Origin: Candidatus Thorarchaeota archaeon
GTDB lineage: Archaea; Asgardarchaeota; Thorarchaeia; Thorarchaeales; Thorarchaeaceae
Assembly (NCBI GenBank): GCA_030593165.1
Contig: JAUVHR010000001.1
Span: 89,025-130,576, forward strand
DNA length: 41,552 nucleotides
Direction: 5' to 3'
Shown here piece by piece: positions 3,948-16,110 of this stretch (positions are counted from its first letter, which is position 1; every line of letters begins with the position of its first letter). Below the pieces are notes generated by a model. That model searched no databases and was not told where the DNA came from. It saw nothing but the letters and a program-made list of their open reading frames with translations. Both the position numbers and the translations under genes were made by a program.

Positions 3948-4063
3948 TGGCGCTGAGGGAGGGATTCGAACCCTCGTGTGCTTAGCACACCAACTATCAG
4001 CCCGCCTACATTACGCGCCGGCGATTAGCAGGCTGGCTCCTTACCAGGCTAGGAAACCTCAGC
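3948..4063 (-). tRNA. tRNA-Ser(GCT) with anticodon-loop intron (about 4003-4025) and encoded CCA
   Basis: Acceptor GCTGAGG/CCTCAGC, T-arm GAGGG-TTCGAAT-CCCTC, long variable arm GTGTGC-TAA-GCACAC (type II tRNA), anticodon GCT, discriminator G, CCA at 3948-3950; about 23 extra nt after A37. Confidence 0.88.
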
Positions 4064-7897: not shown

Positions 7898-8269
7898 CTA
7901 TTTTCGCAGACCACTGATTTTCTCGACAATATCGTCGACTAGGTCCTTTGCTTTTCCATCAACTACGATTGCTACTGCAGCAGTAGGCCGTTCGATACCA
8001 GCTGCATTACCGAGGTCTCTCTTGCTCTTCACGAAGATATAGGGGGCCTTTCTGTCATCGCAGAGGCCTGGCAAGAACATGATTATCTCAGGCGGTTCGA
8101 CATCTTCAGCAATTACCACGAGCTTCGCAATACCACGCTCGATACTCTTTGTCGCTTCGTTGATTCCTTTCTTGATTCGACCCGTGTCCTTGGCGATTTC
8201 AAGTGCCTCAAGGGCCTTCTTCTGCAACTCTTCTGTTGCTTCCCATTCCACGAAAGATGGTTTTGGCAT
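7898..8269 (-). CDS. rpl7ae: Ribosomal protein L7Ae
   Basis: GINEATKSIERGIAKLVVIAEDVEPPEIIMFLPGLCDDRKAPYIFVKSKRDLGNAAG; start at MPKPSF preferred. Confidence 0.95.
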   Translation of the reverse strand: MPKPSFVEWEATEELQKKALEALEIAKDTGRIKKGINEATKSIERGIAKLVVIAEDVEPPEIIMFLPGLCDDRKAPYIFVKSKRDLGNAAGIERPTAAVAIVVDGKAKDLVDDIVEKISGLRK

Positions 8270-8413
8270 TGTTTCTACCTCTGTTCTTACTTCATCGGTA
8301 TTAGTGAATACAGATTGAGATACACCCACTGCTGGGGTGCACTTCTGCGCCCCTTACGGTGCGTTCTTTTAAGGCTGTCGAACTGTGACCGGTTTTCCAA
8401 CCTGAAGAATCAC

Positions 8414-10100: not shown

Positions 10101-10161
10101 ATTTTCTACAATTGAAAACTCCCTAATCCGTTCCCAAATCCTTTTATACATACTACAAAAC

Positions 10162-10277
10162 GGCTCATTCACCTAGGACACGGGCGAGTGAGCTGTCAGT
10201 CCACCAGGGCTTTCTGCGAGTCCGTCCGGGAATAGTGTCTTTTAGGTGAGTCAAAGCCTCCCTGGTAAGGTGAAACA
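10162..10277 (+). promoter_or_regulatory. Candidate structured 5' leader of the rpoD operon
   Basis: TATA-like CTTTTATA (10141-10148); GCTCATTC/GAGTGAGC (10163-10170/10186-10193); CACCTA/TAGGTG + GACAC/GTGTC (10170-10181/10235-10248); ACCAGGGCTTT/AAAGCC..CTGGT (10203-10213/10253-10266). Confidence 0.5.
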
Positions 10278-11078
10278 ATGGAAGTCACAATCCTTCACAA
10301 AGATGAGAATGTCATCCATTTCCTGTTGGAAGGTGTTGATGTGGCATTTGCGAACGCACTCAGGAGGACCATGATTAACCGACTGCCTGCAATGGCAATC
10401 GATGAGGTCCTAGTCCTTGAGAACACAAGTGTCATGTTCGACGAAATGCTAGCGCAGCGACTCGGTCTTATCCCCCTGACGACCGACCTAGACTCATACA
10501 ATCTTCCACGAAACTGTGACTGTGAAGGAAAGGGATGCAGCTTATGTCAATGCACACTCACCTTAGAGAAAGAGGCAGACGAAGAAGAAATGATTGTCTA
10601 CTCTGGCGATTTATCATCTCAGGATCCAAAAGTGATTCCTGCGACAGATGGGATTCCCCTAGTGAAGCTTGCTCCTCGTCAGAGCATAATCGTTGAGGCC
10701 TATGCTAGGCTTGGAACCGGTTCAGAGAATGCCAAGTTCCAGCCAGTTGCCACAGTGGCTTACAAGTATGTTCCTGTTGTTAGCGTAGACAAGACAAAGT
10801 GTGATCAATGCGGTGCCTGTGTGGAGGTATGCCCAAAGAATATCCTAATCATTGAGGGCGATACACTGTCTACTCAGAACACTCTGGACTGTAGTCTGTG
10901 TGAAATTTGCGTCAAAGAGTGCGAACCTAGCGCCATCATTATTGACTCCAAGAAGGATAGTTTTCTCTTCAAAGTAGAGTCCTCGGGTGCACTGCCTCCT
11001 GAGGAGATTGCAGAACGGGCAGCAGAGATATTGAAAGAGAGAATCAGAGTGGCACTTGATTTCACAAACTCGCTGTGA
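10278..11078 (+). CDS. rpoD: DNA-directed RNA polymerase subunit D with two 4Fe-4S motifs
   Basis: FALRRTMINRLPAMAIDEV-type alpha-like core; CDQCGACVEVCPKN and CSLCEICVKECEPS ferredoxin motifs. Confidence 0.96.
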   Translation: MEVTILHKDENVIHFLLEGVDVAFANALRRTMINRLPAMAIDEVLVLENTSVMFDEMLAQRLGLIPLTTDLDSYNLPRNCDCEGKGCSLCQCTLTLEKEADEEEMIVYSGDLSSQDPKVIPATDGIPLVKLAPRQSIIVEAYARLGTGSENAKFQPVATVAYKYVPVVSVDKTKCDQCGACVEVCPKNILIIEGDTLSTQNTLDCSLCEICVKECEPSAIIIDSKKDSFLFKVESSGALPPEEIAERAAEILKERIRVALDFTNSL

Positions 11079-11089
11079 GGTGTATCGAC

Positions 11090-11452
11090 ATGGTGCGAGC
11101 TGGACCAACTGATCCCAATACACGCGCACTCATTAACGCGCTTAGAAAGATATCAACGAAGCACAATGTTGGCATATGGAAAAGGGTCGCTGAACTAGTA
11201 GCCCGGCCAGCTAGGAAACGTCCCACTGTAAACGTAGGAAAGATTGCACGACATACCAATGCAGGAGATGTGGTGATTGTACCCGGAAAGGTACTTGCCT
11301 CAGGAACTATAGCCCATAAAGTGACAGTTGCTGCTCTGAATGCATCTGCTGCTGCAAGGTCGGTTATCGTCGATGCTGGGGGTTCACTGATTTCAATCGA
11401 TGAGCTACTCACAAAAACCCCGAAGGGGACTGATGTCACTATTATCACATGA
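11090..11452 (+). CDS. rpl18e: Ribosomal protein L18e
   Basis: GPTDPNTRALINALRKISTKHNVGIWKRVAELVARPARKRPTVNVGKI. Confidence 0.95.
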   Translation: MVRAGPTDPNTRALINALRKISTKHNVGIWKRVAELVARPARKRPTVNVGKIARHTNAGDVVIVPGKVLASGTIAHKVTVAALNASAAARSVIVDAGGSLISIDELLTKTPKGTDVTIIT

Positions 11453-11462
11453 GGTGGTCCCA

Positions 11463-11915
11463 ATGAGTGAAGGAGCGATAAAAGTCTACGATGCAGACAA
11501 CATGGTTATTGGACGACTATCGGCAAAGGTTGCAAAGGCTGCACTCTTAGGTGATAGAGTGGTCATAGTGAACGTTGAGAAGGCAATCATCACAGGTGAC
11601 AGAAAGACCGTCATAAAAGCATACAAGGAAAAGTTCAACATACGGACTTCATACAATCCAAGGAAAGGACCATTCCACCACCGTCGACCGGACAAACTGG
11701 TCCGACGGATTCTACGAGGGATGCTACCTTGGCCCAAGCCCAGAGGCAAGGCTGCCTTTAAACGAATCCACGTGTATATAGGAATTCCCGAGAAATATGC
11801 AAACATGGAGAAGATTATTCTGGAAGGGTCAAAATATCATAGCCTTACTCGTAAGTTCATCACGATAGCTGATTTGAGTCAAGAACTTGGCTGGAGACAT
11901 CCGGAGGTTATGTGA
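11463..11915 (+). CDS. rpl13: Ribosomal protein L13
   Basis: VYDADNMVIGRLSAKVAKAALLGDRVVIVNVEKAIITG...GPFHHRRPDKLVRRILRGMLPWPKPRGKAAFKRIHVYIGIP. Confidence 0.96.
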   Translation: MSEGAIKVYDADNMVIGRLSAKVAKAALLGDRVVIVNVEKAIITGDRKTVIKAYKEKFNIRTSYNPRKGPFHHRRPDKLVRRILRGMLPWPKPRGKAAFKRIHVYIGIPEKYANMEKIILEGSKYHSLTRKFITIADLSQELGWRHPEVM

Positions 11916-11916
11916 G

Positions 11917-12315
11917 ATGCGAGTTGTTGTTTCAACTGGAAAACGAAAGACAAGTCTTGCAAAGGCCACAGTAAAGAACGGATCTGGTAGAATTCGAATT
12001 AACGGAACACCACTTGAAATCCTCCAACCCGAGATTGCACGTCTAAGGGTGACCGAGGCCTTGATCCTATTCGGTGAAGATTGGAAGAGGTATGACATCA
12101 AGGTGAGAGTGCGAGGTGGTGGTTTCATGAGTCAGGCTGACGCTATCAGGATGGCCATTGCTACTGGATTGTTTCGAATGAGTCAGGACTTTGAGGCTCG
12201 CTCAAGGATGCTTGAGCACGACAGAACAATGCTTGTGGGGGACCCACGAAGAACAGAACCGAAGAAGTTCGGAGGCCCCTCAGCAAGATCAAGATTTCAG
12301 AAATCATACAGGTAA
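11917..12315 (+). CDS. rps9: Ribosomal protein S9
   Basis: STGKRKTSLAKATVKNGSGRIRING...DRTMLVGDPRRTEPKKFGGPSARSRFQKSYR. Confidence 0.96.
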   Translation: MRVVVSTGKRKTSLAKATVKNGSGRIRINGTPLEILQPEIARLRVTEALILFGEDWKRYDIKVRVRGGGFMSQADAIRMAIATGLFRMSQDFEARSRMLEHDRTMLVGDPRRTEPKKFGGPSARSRFQKSYR

Positions 12316-12327
12316 GGTGGCGATAGG

Positions 12328-12546
12328 ATGATTGTACCAGTACGATGTTTCACATGCGGAAAAGTCGTGGCAGACAAATATGAAGAGTTTAAGCGTCAAA
12401 TCCGACAGGGCGAGGACCCTGCAGTCGTTCTTGACGGTCTGGGTCTTTCAAGATATTGTTGTCGCAGGATGCTGCTATCACACATTGATGTGATTGATAG
12501 CTTCATGGCCTTTGCTGCCACTAATGTTCCGGAGGGCAACACATGA
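12328..12546 (+). CDS. rpoN: DNA-directed RNA polymerase subunit N
   Basis: [21 protein letters not shown]...[20 protein letters not shown]. Confidence 0.96.
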
Positions 12547-13181
12547 TTAGCGATGGAGAAATGTCAGAGGCTGATCTTCTTGCCCCGATGGATAAGTACC
12601 TCGCGGCGGGTTGTCATATTGGCACACAAGTGAAAACACAGGACATGGAACCATTTGTCTACAGACAGAGGCCCATTGGACTGTACGTTCTTGATGTTCG
12701 AAAGACCGATGAACGAATCAGGACTGCTGGTAAATTCCTTTCGAGGTTTGACCCCAGCAAGGTAGTTGTAGTTTCTGGAAGAGTCTACGGTAAGAAACCC
12801 GTGGAAACCTTTGCATACTACACTGGTGCCCATGCGTTCACAGATAGATTCATTCCCGGAACACTGACAAATCCGAATATCGCTGGTCCTCGTATCTACA
12901 TCGAGCCCGAGCTTGTGATTCTGACAGACCCACGAACTGACCAGCAGGCGCTCTCTGAAGCTGCGAAGATTGGAGTCCCTGTCATTGCTCTCTGTGACAC
13001 TGATAACATGACCACAAATGTGGATTATGTCATACCTTCTAACAATCGAGGTCGGAAGGCTTTAGCCCTGGTCTATTTCCTTCTATCAAGGCAGGTGCTC
13101 AGAGAACGCGGCGACATATCCCCCGATGGTGAAGCTGCATTCACAGCAGAGGACTTTGAACCACAACTCCAACGTTTCTAG
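12543..13181 (+). CDS. rps2: Ribosomal protein S2
   Basis: [25 protein letters not shown]...[40 protein letters not shown]. Confidence 0.95.
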
Positions 13182-13191
13182 ACAACTACTG

Positions 13192-13608
13192 TCAATCAGG
13201 GTGGTCGTATGATTTGCCCTTGATTGACACGATGCCATTATCAGCGTCTACCTCTATCTTCTGACCTGTCTGAATATTACTAATTTCAATTTGGTCTACA
13301 GCGGGGATTTCTGAAATTATACAGCCAACTGCAACAACAGTATCCGTGGATTCGTTCACAATTGCCAGTGGGGCTTTGCCTACTTTCTTGAGTGCATAGA
13401 GCACATAAGACCCAACAGTAGATCCTTTACCTGTCGGAAAGACTAGAATCTTACCTGCAATGGACTTGCCTTCAAGTTCATGCCCCTTCTCAACGATTTC
13501 TCCTGTTTCTGGGTCACATCCCCCAAAGAAGGAAATATCATCACCTGTGACAAGTGCCTCGCCCTCAATCTTCCCCTTGAAAATCCTCCTACCTTTGAAG
13601 CGAGTCAT
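13192..13608 (-). CDS. Aconitase X small (swivel) subunit; probable phosphomevalonate dehydratase small subunit
   Basis: GEALVTGDDISFFGGCDPETGEIVEKGHELEGKSIAGKILVFPTGKGSTVGSYVLYAL; overlaps the large subunit by 4 nt. Confidence 0.9.
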   Translation of the reverse strand: MTRFKGRRIFKGKIEGEALVTGDDISFFGGCDPETGEIVEKGHELEGKSIAGKILVFPTGKGSTVGSYVLYALKKVGKAPLAIVNESTDTVVAVGCIISEIPAVDQIEISNIQTGQKIEVDADNGIVSIKGKSYDHPD

Positions 13609-14792
13609 GTCACTGCCTCCTCAAGGCATTGCTCTATACTTCGTATCTCTGTTTTGAACTTGTTTTTACCACGTGCATAGAAACATGCCTTTGCGGAGTC
13701 CGTCATCAAGCCCTTAAATCGCTCTTTCAATGGGGCCACTGCACAACATGCATCGCTGACTAAGAATGCACCAGCATTTTCGATTGTTTCATAATATCCC
13801 ATCATGATGGCAAGTTCTTTCGTTGGTTTGGCCGTAGTAATCCACACAGTCTTACCCTCTGCGACTCTCTTACCTTCCAATAGCTCAGCCACTCTTGCAA
13901 TCTCTTTGATGCTTGCATGGGGGCATCCTATACTGATAAAATCAATATCAGCTTCATCATCATCGAGAGTCATACGAGCAGCGTCCAAGTCTTCCCGAGT
14001 TACTACCTCAGTCCTATCAGGCACTAATGTTCTGTTGGGAGTAATGTTCTCCATGTGAAACAGTGCCACTCCACCATAAGTTGCAACTGAGGCTGAGAAT
14101 GACTTCAGTTTTTCCATTGTGACACTTACGATTCCAGTAATGTAGGGTATCTCCTTACCGGTGCGCACGCCGATTACATGTCCGAGGAGTCCAAAGTCAT
14201 CGGTGTCCTCAAGTTTGGTTTGAACCTCATACTTGACCTGTGCTATCCTGTTCTCCCGCAAGTGGAGTCCGTATTCTGCTGTTCTCCCTGTGAGGGCTGC
14301 AGCCAATGCACTTGGTCCACCTTCCCTATTGGTCAAAGCTCCAATTACCGAATTAGCAAAACACACTGCAGAGGACTCTGCCCAAGCTATATGTTCTCCA
14401 TAGTGTGGAAGATTTCCTATCAGATAGGGCGTACAAGTGCAGGTCGTCACAACACCCATTCTGTTGAAGATATCGACCACCCTCTGCTGATTTCTAGCAA
14501 AATCGTTATTGATTCCATGCTTTTTCCACTCTACCAAGTCCATACCAGCAGGATTCAGAGTAGTGAGGACCTTTGTTCTCCCATCCTCGGCCATTCCTGC
14601 AAGATACTCGAGACCGGCCTCTCCAAGATTATGGTAGGAAACTCCTGCAATTTGAACGCTGGAAACAGAAATCAGGCGCTCCGCACCATAGATTTCACCT
14701 AGTGTTGTAATAATCTCCATGGACTTCTTGGTTGCTTTCCCATACTTTCCATCCAGCATCTCCTGCTCTTCTCTGGAAAGATCCATTACCAA
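13605..14792 (-). CDS. Aconitase X catalytic subunit; probable phosphomevalonate dehydratase large subunit
   Basis: VQIAGVSYHNLGEAGLEYL, CTCTPYLIGNLPHYGEHIAWAESSAVCFANSVIGALTNREGGPSALAAALTGRTAEYG. Confidence 0.92.
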   Translation of the reverse strand: MVMDLSREEQEMLDGKYGKATKKSMEIITTLGEIYGAERLISVSSVQIAGVSYHNLGEAGLEYLAGMAEDGRTKVLTTLNPAGMDLVEWKKHGINNDFARNQQRVVDIFNRMGVVTTCTCTPYLIGNLPHYGEHIAWAESSAVCFANSVIGALTNREGGPSALAAALTGRTAEYGLHLRENRIAQVKYEVQTKLEDTDDFGLLGHVIGVRTGKEIPYITGIVSVTMEKLKSFSASVATYGGVALFHMENITPNRTLVPDRTEVVTREDLDAARMTLDDDEADIDFISIGCPHASIKEIARVAELLEGKRVAEGKTVWITTAKPTKELAIMMGYYETIENAGAFLVSDACCAVAPLKERFKGLMTDSAKACFYARGKNKFKTEIRSIEQCLEEAVT

Positions 14793-14793
14793 G

Positions 14794-16110
14794 TCACTCT
14801 CCTAGAAACTTCTTCAAGTCAACACTTGGAAACTTGGCTCTTTCATAGCTCTTTCCCTCTGTTTCTAATGGTTTAGTGCAATCGAACCCACACTTGGTAG
14901 TCAACTTAGTTCCACTCTCAGCACTCGGGTCCAAGCTACTTCCTGGCTCCTTGTCTTTGATAAGCAAGTCTACATCAGCTTGAAACCTTGTAGCGAATGC
15001 CCACTCTCTATCGTACCTTGACTGTCTATCATAGATGTCTATGTCTTCATCATATATCCAGACATGTTTGGCACTGTGATGTCCGGCAAACGCGGCTTCG
15101 ATTGCTTTCAGACCGTCATCTTCATACTTCTTACGAATCTTTACGGCTACGTGAAGCCAGCTAGATCCTCCTGGAGTGATGTTCACATCAATTACATCTA
15201 TTCCTAGGTCCTTGACTTTCTTGTAGACGGTTGGTTCTCTGGGCATACCCATGAGAATCTTATGTTCTGCATGTCCAGGAAGAAGTCCTTGCCAAATTGC
15301 ATTCTTTCTGTGTGTAATCTTCTTCACTTCGAAGACTGGCTCTTGTCGAACGACATCAACTGTTTCTGTGAGGTCTATGAATGGGCCTTCGTCGTGCTTC
15401 TCATCCAGAATCACTCTTCCCTCAAGAACAAACTCACATTCAGCTGGTATCAACAAGTCAACTGTTTTTGCTCTTACCACCTTGATTGGCTGGAGCGCAT
15501 TGGCGATTTCTAGCTCATTAATGCCAGTTTCCACACTGGTTGCCGCTGCAATCAACACTTCTGGAGCGTTTCCAATACAGAATGCAACGTCCACCTCTCC
15601 ATTCTTCTCAAGGAATCTATGAAAGTCCCGACCTTGCACTACTCGTGCGACCATGCGATTTTCACCAATCTGCATAGCCCTATGAAAATCAAGATTCTGT
15701 CCATAATCGGGGTCTGCAGCCACAACAACACCCGAGGAGATGTATGGGCCACCATCAATCTCATTATGGACAAGAATTGGCAGCTGACTCAGGTCAACAC
15801 CATCATGTACAACTTCCTGACAAGTGGCTTCTGTGACTTCTTCAGGTACGCTACGATTCTCAATCGCCTTTGTCAAAGTGGGGATTATGTCTTCAGTTCT
15901 GATTCCAAAGTAATCAGCAATCTGACTTTTCGTACAAAAGAGATTTCCAGCAACTCGAAAGTCACTGTCACTTAGGTTCTCAAATAGGACCGGTTTTGGT
16001 TCAATAGCACTGAGAACACCAGCAATCTCTAGGTTCTTGGATATGCTCCTACTAACGACCGTCAGTTTGTTATCTTCACGAAGCTTGTTGATGTATTTTT
16101 CAAGTATCAT
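14794..16110 (-). CDS. UbiD-family decarboxylase; probable trans-anhydromevalonate 5-phosphate decarboxylase
   Basis: Full-length UbiD fold (GMPREPTVYKKVKDLGIDVIDVNITPGGSSWLHVAVKI) in an operon with aconitase X and mevalonate kinase. Confidence 0.88.
   Translation of the reverse strand: MILEKYINKLREDNKLTVVSRSISKNLEIAGVLSAIEPKPVLFENLSDSDFRVAGNLFCTKSQIADYFGIRTEDIIPTLTKAIENRSVPEEVTEATCQEVVHDGVDLSQLPILVHNEIDGGPYISSGVVVAADPDYGQNLDFHRAMQIGENRMVARVVQGRDFHRFLEKNGEVDVAFCIGNAPEVLIAAATSVETGINELEIANALQPIKVVRAKTVDLLIPAECEFVLEGRVILDEKHDEGPFIDLTETVDVVRQEPVFEVKKITHRKNAIWQGLLPGHAEHKILMGMPREPTVYKKVKDLGIDVIDVNITPGGSSWLHVAVKIRKKYEDDGLKAIEAAFAGHHSAKHVWIYDEDIDIYDRQSRYDREWAFATRFQADVDLLIKDKEPGSSLDPSAESGTKLTTKCGFDCTKPLETEGKSYERAKFPSVDLKKFLGE

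Follow-up and report, generated by a model that had tools for sequence, protein, structure and literature searches.

A conserved structured leader RNA upstream of the rpoD-ribosomal protein operon in Thorarchaeia

Described operon leaders and the rpoD locus

To our knowledge, few cis-regulatory RNAs have been described in archaea. In bacteria, the L13 leader (Rfam RF00555) belongs to the L13-S9 operon. The leader of the bacterial alpha operon mediates feedback by the ribosomal protein S4, itself encoded in the operon, which binds a pseudoknot that includes the ribosome site of the first gene (PMC10931766). In archaea, feedback by L7Ae through k-turns in 5'-UTRs is established (PMC5539422, PMC6298567); in these leaders the Shine-Dalgarno sequence of the l7ae gene lies in or beside a helix of the k-turn, which is usually defined with a 3-nt bulge (PMC6298567).

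The window, the whole 41,552-nt stretch of DNA analysed here, is part of contig C288 in a draft genome from the Thorarchaeia (Asgard archaea). Its RpoD finds its closest named relatives almost throughout in Thorarchaeota MAGs, at 70-82% amino-acid identity, and Pfam assigns the operon the genes rpoD, L18e, L13, S9, RpoN and S2. The features of the locus are:

10141-10148, + strand: TATA box CTTTTATA of the rpoD operon promoter, with A-rich BRE-like bases just upstream (TTTTA spacing in 43/43 homologues; A-rich at -34/-33)
10171, + strand: inferred transcription start, the first base of stem P1 (fixed TATA spacing; purine at +1, pyrimidine at -1)
10171-10247, + strand: conserved structured leader RNA core, ca. 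77 bases (model R1; 43 distinct homologues; 90.1 bits, E 1.8e-24, single copy in its own genome)
10267-10272, + strand: Shine-Dalgarno sequence AAGGTG of rpoD (read from the sequence; the usual form in relatives is AGGTGA)
10278-11078, + strand: rpoD, RNA polymerase subunit Rpo3 with 4Fe-4S motifs (Pfam RNA_pol_L, RNA_pol_A_bac, Fer4)
11075-13181, + strand: remainder of the operon, L18e, L13, S9, RpoN and S2 (Pfam; gene order in relatives)

The gene content recalls both bacterial systems, as it combines the gene for RNA polymerase alpha/Rpo3 with ribosomal proteins and includes L13 and S9; unlike in the alpha operon, S4 is not among the genes. As in autogenously controlled ribosomal protein operons, ribosomal proteins are encoded in the operon and the leader is fixed in cis. 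The order from rpoD to S2 is the same in 11 of 12 regions from relatives, while in L131 only L18e is visible past rpoD. For the genes shown, the order common to the 12 regions is L7Ae, G1PDH, Arf-like GTPase, leader, rpoD, L18e, L13, S9, rpoN, S2, AcnX and UbiD; the L127 region shows no L7Ae, and the L131 region ends after L18e. The gene preceding rpoD in Thorarchaeia encodes the Arf-like GTPase; in L127 it is more distant, with the leader still adjoining rpoD. In three other Asgard families (among 20 genomes inspected) S11 ends directly before rpoD; in Thorarchaeia S11 is located elsewhere in the genome, and rpoD is preceded by a promoter and a leader of its own.

Three further observations concern the surroundings. 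Within RpoD, window positions 10770-10930 encode a ferredoxin-like domain with two 4Fe-4S cysteine motifs. The minus strand at 13192-16110 encodes aconitase-X subunits and, after them, a UbiD-family decarboxylase; wherever the regions of relatives extend this far, they keep this order. We take this pair to resemble the phosphomevalonate dehydratase and anhydromevalonate phosphate decarboxylase of the archaeal modified mevalonate pathway. A 113-nt tRNA match at 3951-4063 (minus strand) suggests an intron-containing tRNA gene.

Conservation and fold of the leader core

An earlier note on this DNA had correctly quoted the TATA box and the Shine-Dalgarno sequence and had proposed a structured leader between promoter and operon, a proposal borne out by conservation and covariation in 43 homologues. 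When 232 bases around the rpoD start were compared across 39 named relatives, a conserved block was found directly 3' of the TATA box. After removal of duplicates, alignment A1 held 43 distinct sequences of 71-82 nt with 27 invariant columns, in which the near-invariant stretches CAYGGGCGANNGAGC and GCGAGUCCRUCCGGGA flank a variable hairpin. The mean identity of the core among the 43 homologues is 0.89 (minimum 0.71). Third codon positions of rpoD average 0.42, and the DNA 5' of the promoter averages 0.27, which is the random level. Among the quarter of pairs that are most distant, the core remains at 0.89 vs 0.36 for third codon positions. The variable part of the leader is 40% identical. Since the core lies so far above third positions and upstream DNA, the alignment indicates strong purifying selection on the non-coding leader. 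The folding energy of the window sequence alone is mildly unusual (z -2.0), and the comparison of relatives, not the single-sequence folding energy, is the decisive evidence.

A fold of P1, a 3'-side bulge, P2, a tandem-GA internal loop and a variable hairpin, together with the near-invariant core, emerges from this comparison of sequences, with the following elements in the window:

10171-10181, + strand: 5' strand of P1, ACCUAGGACAC (96% of cells paired; columns 3-82, 4-81 and 11-72 covary)
10182-10185, + strand: 5' strand of P2, GGGC, invariant (partner GUCC at 10220-10223 in register a or 10224-10227 in register b)
10186-10191, + strand: 4-nt loop GAGU, then GA, the bulged strand of the k-turn-like element (G10190 and A10191 invariant)
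10192-10217, + strand: stem GC/GC and variable apical hairpin, unconserved in sequence with pairing mostly kept (columns 24-50, 25-49 and 30-32/42-44 covary)
10218-10219, + strand: GA of the non-bulged strand (invariant in the alignment of 43)
10220-10234, + strand: GUCCGUCCGGGAAUA, with the repeat that provides the 3' strand of P2 and the conserved bulge on the 3' side (near-invariant as far as GGGA across the 43 sequences)
10235-10247, + strand: 3' strand of P1, GUGUCUUUUAGGU, with a UU bulge (alignment and covariation)

P1 follows the consensus R-CCYARGRCAY with RUGUCUUUURGGU and comprises 11 pairs and a 2-nt bulge, with 96% of cells paired. The ACCUA/UAGGU of the window is a compensatory variant of CCCA/UGGG, and column pair 11-72 is C-G in 19 sequences, U-A in 16 and U-G in 4. 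Likewise, the variable hairpin contains many double changes that keep the pairing. The covariation score of 0.284 was reached by none of 500 shuffles (0.179 +/- 0.008); four of five covariation measures lie beyond all 500 shuffles, while the fifth was reached by 17. When the partners were slid by 1-3 columns, the paired fraction fell to 24-49%, and the real pairing lies above all slid controls. The position of the leader directly 3' of the promoter would also suit conservation at the DNA level, as a regulator binding site or a downstream element of the core promoter. The paired columns, however, co-vary, and pairing outlasts sequence change both in P1 (C-G to U-A) and in the variable hairpin, so that we regard this explanation as most improbable.

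The conserved GUCCGUCC repeat gives P2 two possible registers. Register a pairs in 100% of cells and register b in 94.8%, with nine mismatches; RNAalifold chooses register a, extended by columns 10-60 and 11-59, while thermodynamics alone favours register b. In register a the GA dinucleotides of both strands, invariant in 43 of 43 sequences, are opposed as tandem G.A pairs, and a loop of 4 nt (GANN) is left on one strand in all sequences; register b is symmetric. The arrangement in register a corresponds, at the level of a sequence test, to the tandem G.A/A.G pairs between two helices of a standard k-turn, the helices here being the GC stem and GGGC/GUCC. The element thus resembles a k-turn, but we do not class it as one because its loop has 4 nt instead of the usual 3-nt bulge.

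The probable 5' end of the transcript and the three stems first proposed

In 37 of the 43 sequences, P1 starts 29 nt downstream of the first base of the TTTTA in the TATA box; the distance is 28 nt in two and 30 nt in four. P1 opens with a purine in all 43 and is preceded by a pyrimidine in 38. From this fixed spacing, the Y(-1)R(+1) pattern and the usual archaeal promoter geometry, P1 probably forms the 5' end of the mRNA, with transcription starting at 10171. At the other end, 23-33 nt separate the structure from the rpoD start codon in every homologue. A stem that starts at the predicted first nucleotide would leave the 5' end paired, which invites a simpler reading, in which a ligand-free structure blocks 5'-to-3' decay or fixes a constant translation rate. 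A protective stem alone, however, needs no 27 invariant columns, some of them unpaired, and we consider this account rather improbable.

The earlier note had derived a pseudoknot or mutually exclusive folds from three complementarities, namely stem 1 (10163-10170/10186-10193), stem 2 (10170-10181/10235-10248) and stem 3 (10203-10213/10253-10266). All three are present in the sequence, yet only stem 2, which is P1, is conserved, with 9-11 of 11 pairs in 15 relatives. Stem 1 retains only 2-6 of 8 pairs in relatives, and with a start at 10171 its 5' arm (10163-10170) lies outside the transcript. Only in L032, the nearest relative, does stem 3 keep 9 of 11 pairs and show two compensatory changes; elsewhere 1-7 of 11 pairs are kept, and the stem is missing in other genera. 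A permutation test on 21 clusters detected no general pairing of the apical hairpin with the region before the Shine-Dalgarno sequence (p = 0.74), nor was a universally conserved helix sequestering the Shine-Dalgarno sequence found among the relatives. Many but not all relatives have a small hairpin just before the Shine-Dalgarno sequence, and in many but not all ACCU can pair with GGGU of P1 or with the Shine-Dalgarno sequence. Despite the compensatory changes in L032, a three-stem switch as first proposed therefore deserves very little credence, given the unconserved stem 1 before the inferred start and the negative permutation test. Stem 3 is possibly a lineage-specific extra pairing near the Shine-Dalgarno sequence, and because it is lost outside the nearest relative and the general pairing test was negative, the window-specific pseudoknot is at most a decoration common to close relatives.

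Distribution, comparison with known RNAs and proposed function

The leader is universal among the Thorarchaeia examined. Model R1, a covariance model searched in genomes of the family and of other Asgard archaea, matches in 46 of 47 family genomes (E 1e-13 to 1e-24); in the sole genome without the leader, G025, a full rpoD is also absent from the bin. Exactly one copy, just before rpoD, was found in 45 of the 46 positive genomes. The second match in G036 (contig C69, 18.5 bits) is attributed to chance, as it lies inside an apparent protein-coding region. The filtered search, which diverged copies could escape, gave no match in the other Asgard genomes searched, and in 20 genomes from other Asgard families, direct reading of the sequence before rpoD revealed no homologue of the leader. 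Separately, an exact 16-mer has 19 matches in viral contigs, which are likely due to chance; the model gives those contigs at most 15.5 bits. Single copy and strict linkage to rpoD are thus apparent from the genome comparison. The earlier note had also considered an independent ncRNA, and a compact folded unit with its own promoter could indeed be processed to, or double as, a trans-acting small RNA. This is very unlikely, since the element is found once per genome, always in cis, at a distance of 23-33 nt from the start codon of rpoD in 43 of 43 sequences and never elsewhere, and the promoter is that of the mRNA itself.

Rfam gave no match to the leader at the gathering threshold in the window; the earlier note had likewise recognised no known family. 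Permissive scans of the window and two relatives returned weak and inconsistent matches with E values of 0.42 or worse. The best of them, a 14.8-bit alignment of CACCAGGGC...GCCUCCC to the Moco riboswitch (RF01055), occurs in the window only; it is far below the 36-bit cut-off, rests on the lineage-specific stem 3 and is absent in the two relatives, which gave different chance matches of their own. The bacterial L13 leader, from another lineage, was likewise without a match in the Rfam scans. A small-molecule riboswitch, in which the core and the 3' bulge bind a metabolite or an ion and control the operon, would be in keeping with the very high, aptamer-like conservation of unpaired positions (GA and the GGGAA bulge). 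Against it stand the single genomic context with one copy per genome and the Rfam scans without a riboswitch at the cut-off, and we judge it unlikely.

The best-fitting reading, which we hold to be moderately probable from the sequence comparison, is that of a cis-acting, protein-bound feedback leader at the 5' end of the rpoD-L18e-L13-S9-rpoN-S2 mRNA, because of the single copy, the strict operon linkage, the conserved unpaired residues and the nearby Shine-Dalgarno sequence. Protein-mediated control is also more economical than the riboswitch reading. Transcription would start at the first base of P1, and the core would form a putative binding site for a ribosomal protein of the operon, or for L7Ae on the k-turn-like GA element. 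Binding would alter access to the rpoD Shine-Dalgarno sequence ca. 20 nt downstream, and by tuning translation, the feedback would adjust the synthesis of RNA polymerase and ribosomal proteins together. In this proposed feedback the leader would resemble the S4-bound alpha-operon leader; it differs from it in having no conserved pseudoknot (p = 0.74) and in that its conserved fold stops 23-33 nt before rpoD rather than including the ribosome site. Local alignment and an unfiltered model search found no sequence likeness beyond chance to the 16S and 23S rRNA of the relative G017 (the assembly containing the window yielded no rRNA genes), and rRNA mimicry at the sequence level therefore points to no particular ribosomal protein.

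L7Ae is a plausible candidate ligand by analogy, because k-turns in the 5'-UTR place other archaeal mRNAs under its control (PMC5539422). The rpoD leader shares with the known L7Ae leaders (PMC5539422, PMC6298567) the location in a 5'-UTR, tandem G.A pairs beside a short asymmetric loop and a ribosomal protein-related gene. In contrast to their 3-nt loop, its loop has 4 nt and is embedded in a long conserved structure, and the regulated gene would be rpoD instead of l7ae, with the Shine-Dalgarno sequence beyond the structure rather than inside or beside a k-turn helix. The 4-nt loop and the need for register a speak against the k-turn reading, and together with the distance to the Shine-Dalgarno sequence they set the leader apart from the L7Ae family. 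The L7Ae gene lies ca. 2 kb from the leader.

As a separate observation, the L7Ae gene (8269 down to 7898) has a leader of its own at 8267-8300 (minus strand) with a canonical k-turn, ACC-GAU-GA-AGUAAGAACA-GA-GGU, whose C-helix contains the Shine-Dalgarno sequence. Forms like ACCRAUGAAGUGAGAACAGAGGU occur upstream of L7Ae in most of nine relatives, and this Asgard k-turn fits the known archaeal L7Ae feedback loop (PMC5539422).

More tentatively, and with considerable doubt, the leader may represent a new archaeal regulatory class, a 5'-terminal k-turn-like RNA born when the ancestral S11-rpoD gene string split. It would sense a ribosomal protein or L7Ae and thereby link the synthesis of RNA polymerase to that of ribosomes, with the two GUCCGUCC registers as the switch.

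A literature search on Thorarchaeota and riboswitches found nothing comparable. With the rpoD leader, a known kind of RNA gains a new, uncatalogued family. Judging from its conservation, the leader very probably serves as a control element, not described before, for genes of the transcription and translation machinery. Direct tests are possible with synthetic RNA and recombinant proteins and do not require cultivation of the organism. If the proposal is true, the leader controls an operon that encodes four ribosomal proteins along with two subunits of RNA polymerase, and it would offer a handle on the balance of transcription and translation in these relatives of eukaryotes.
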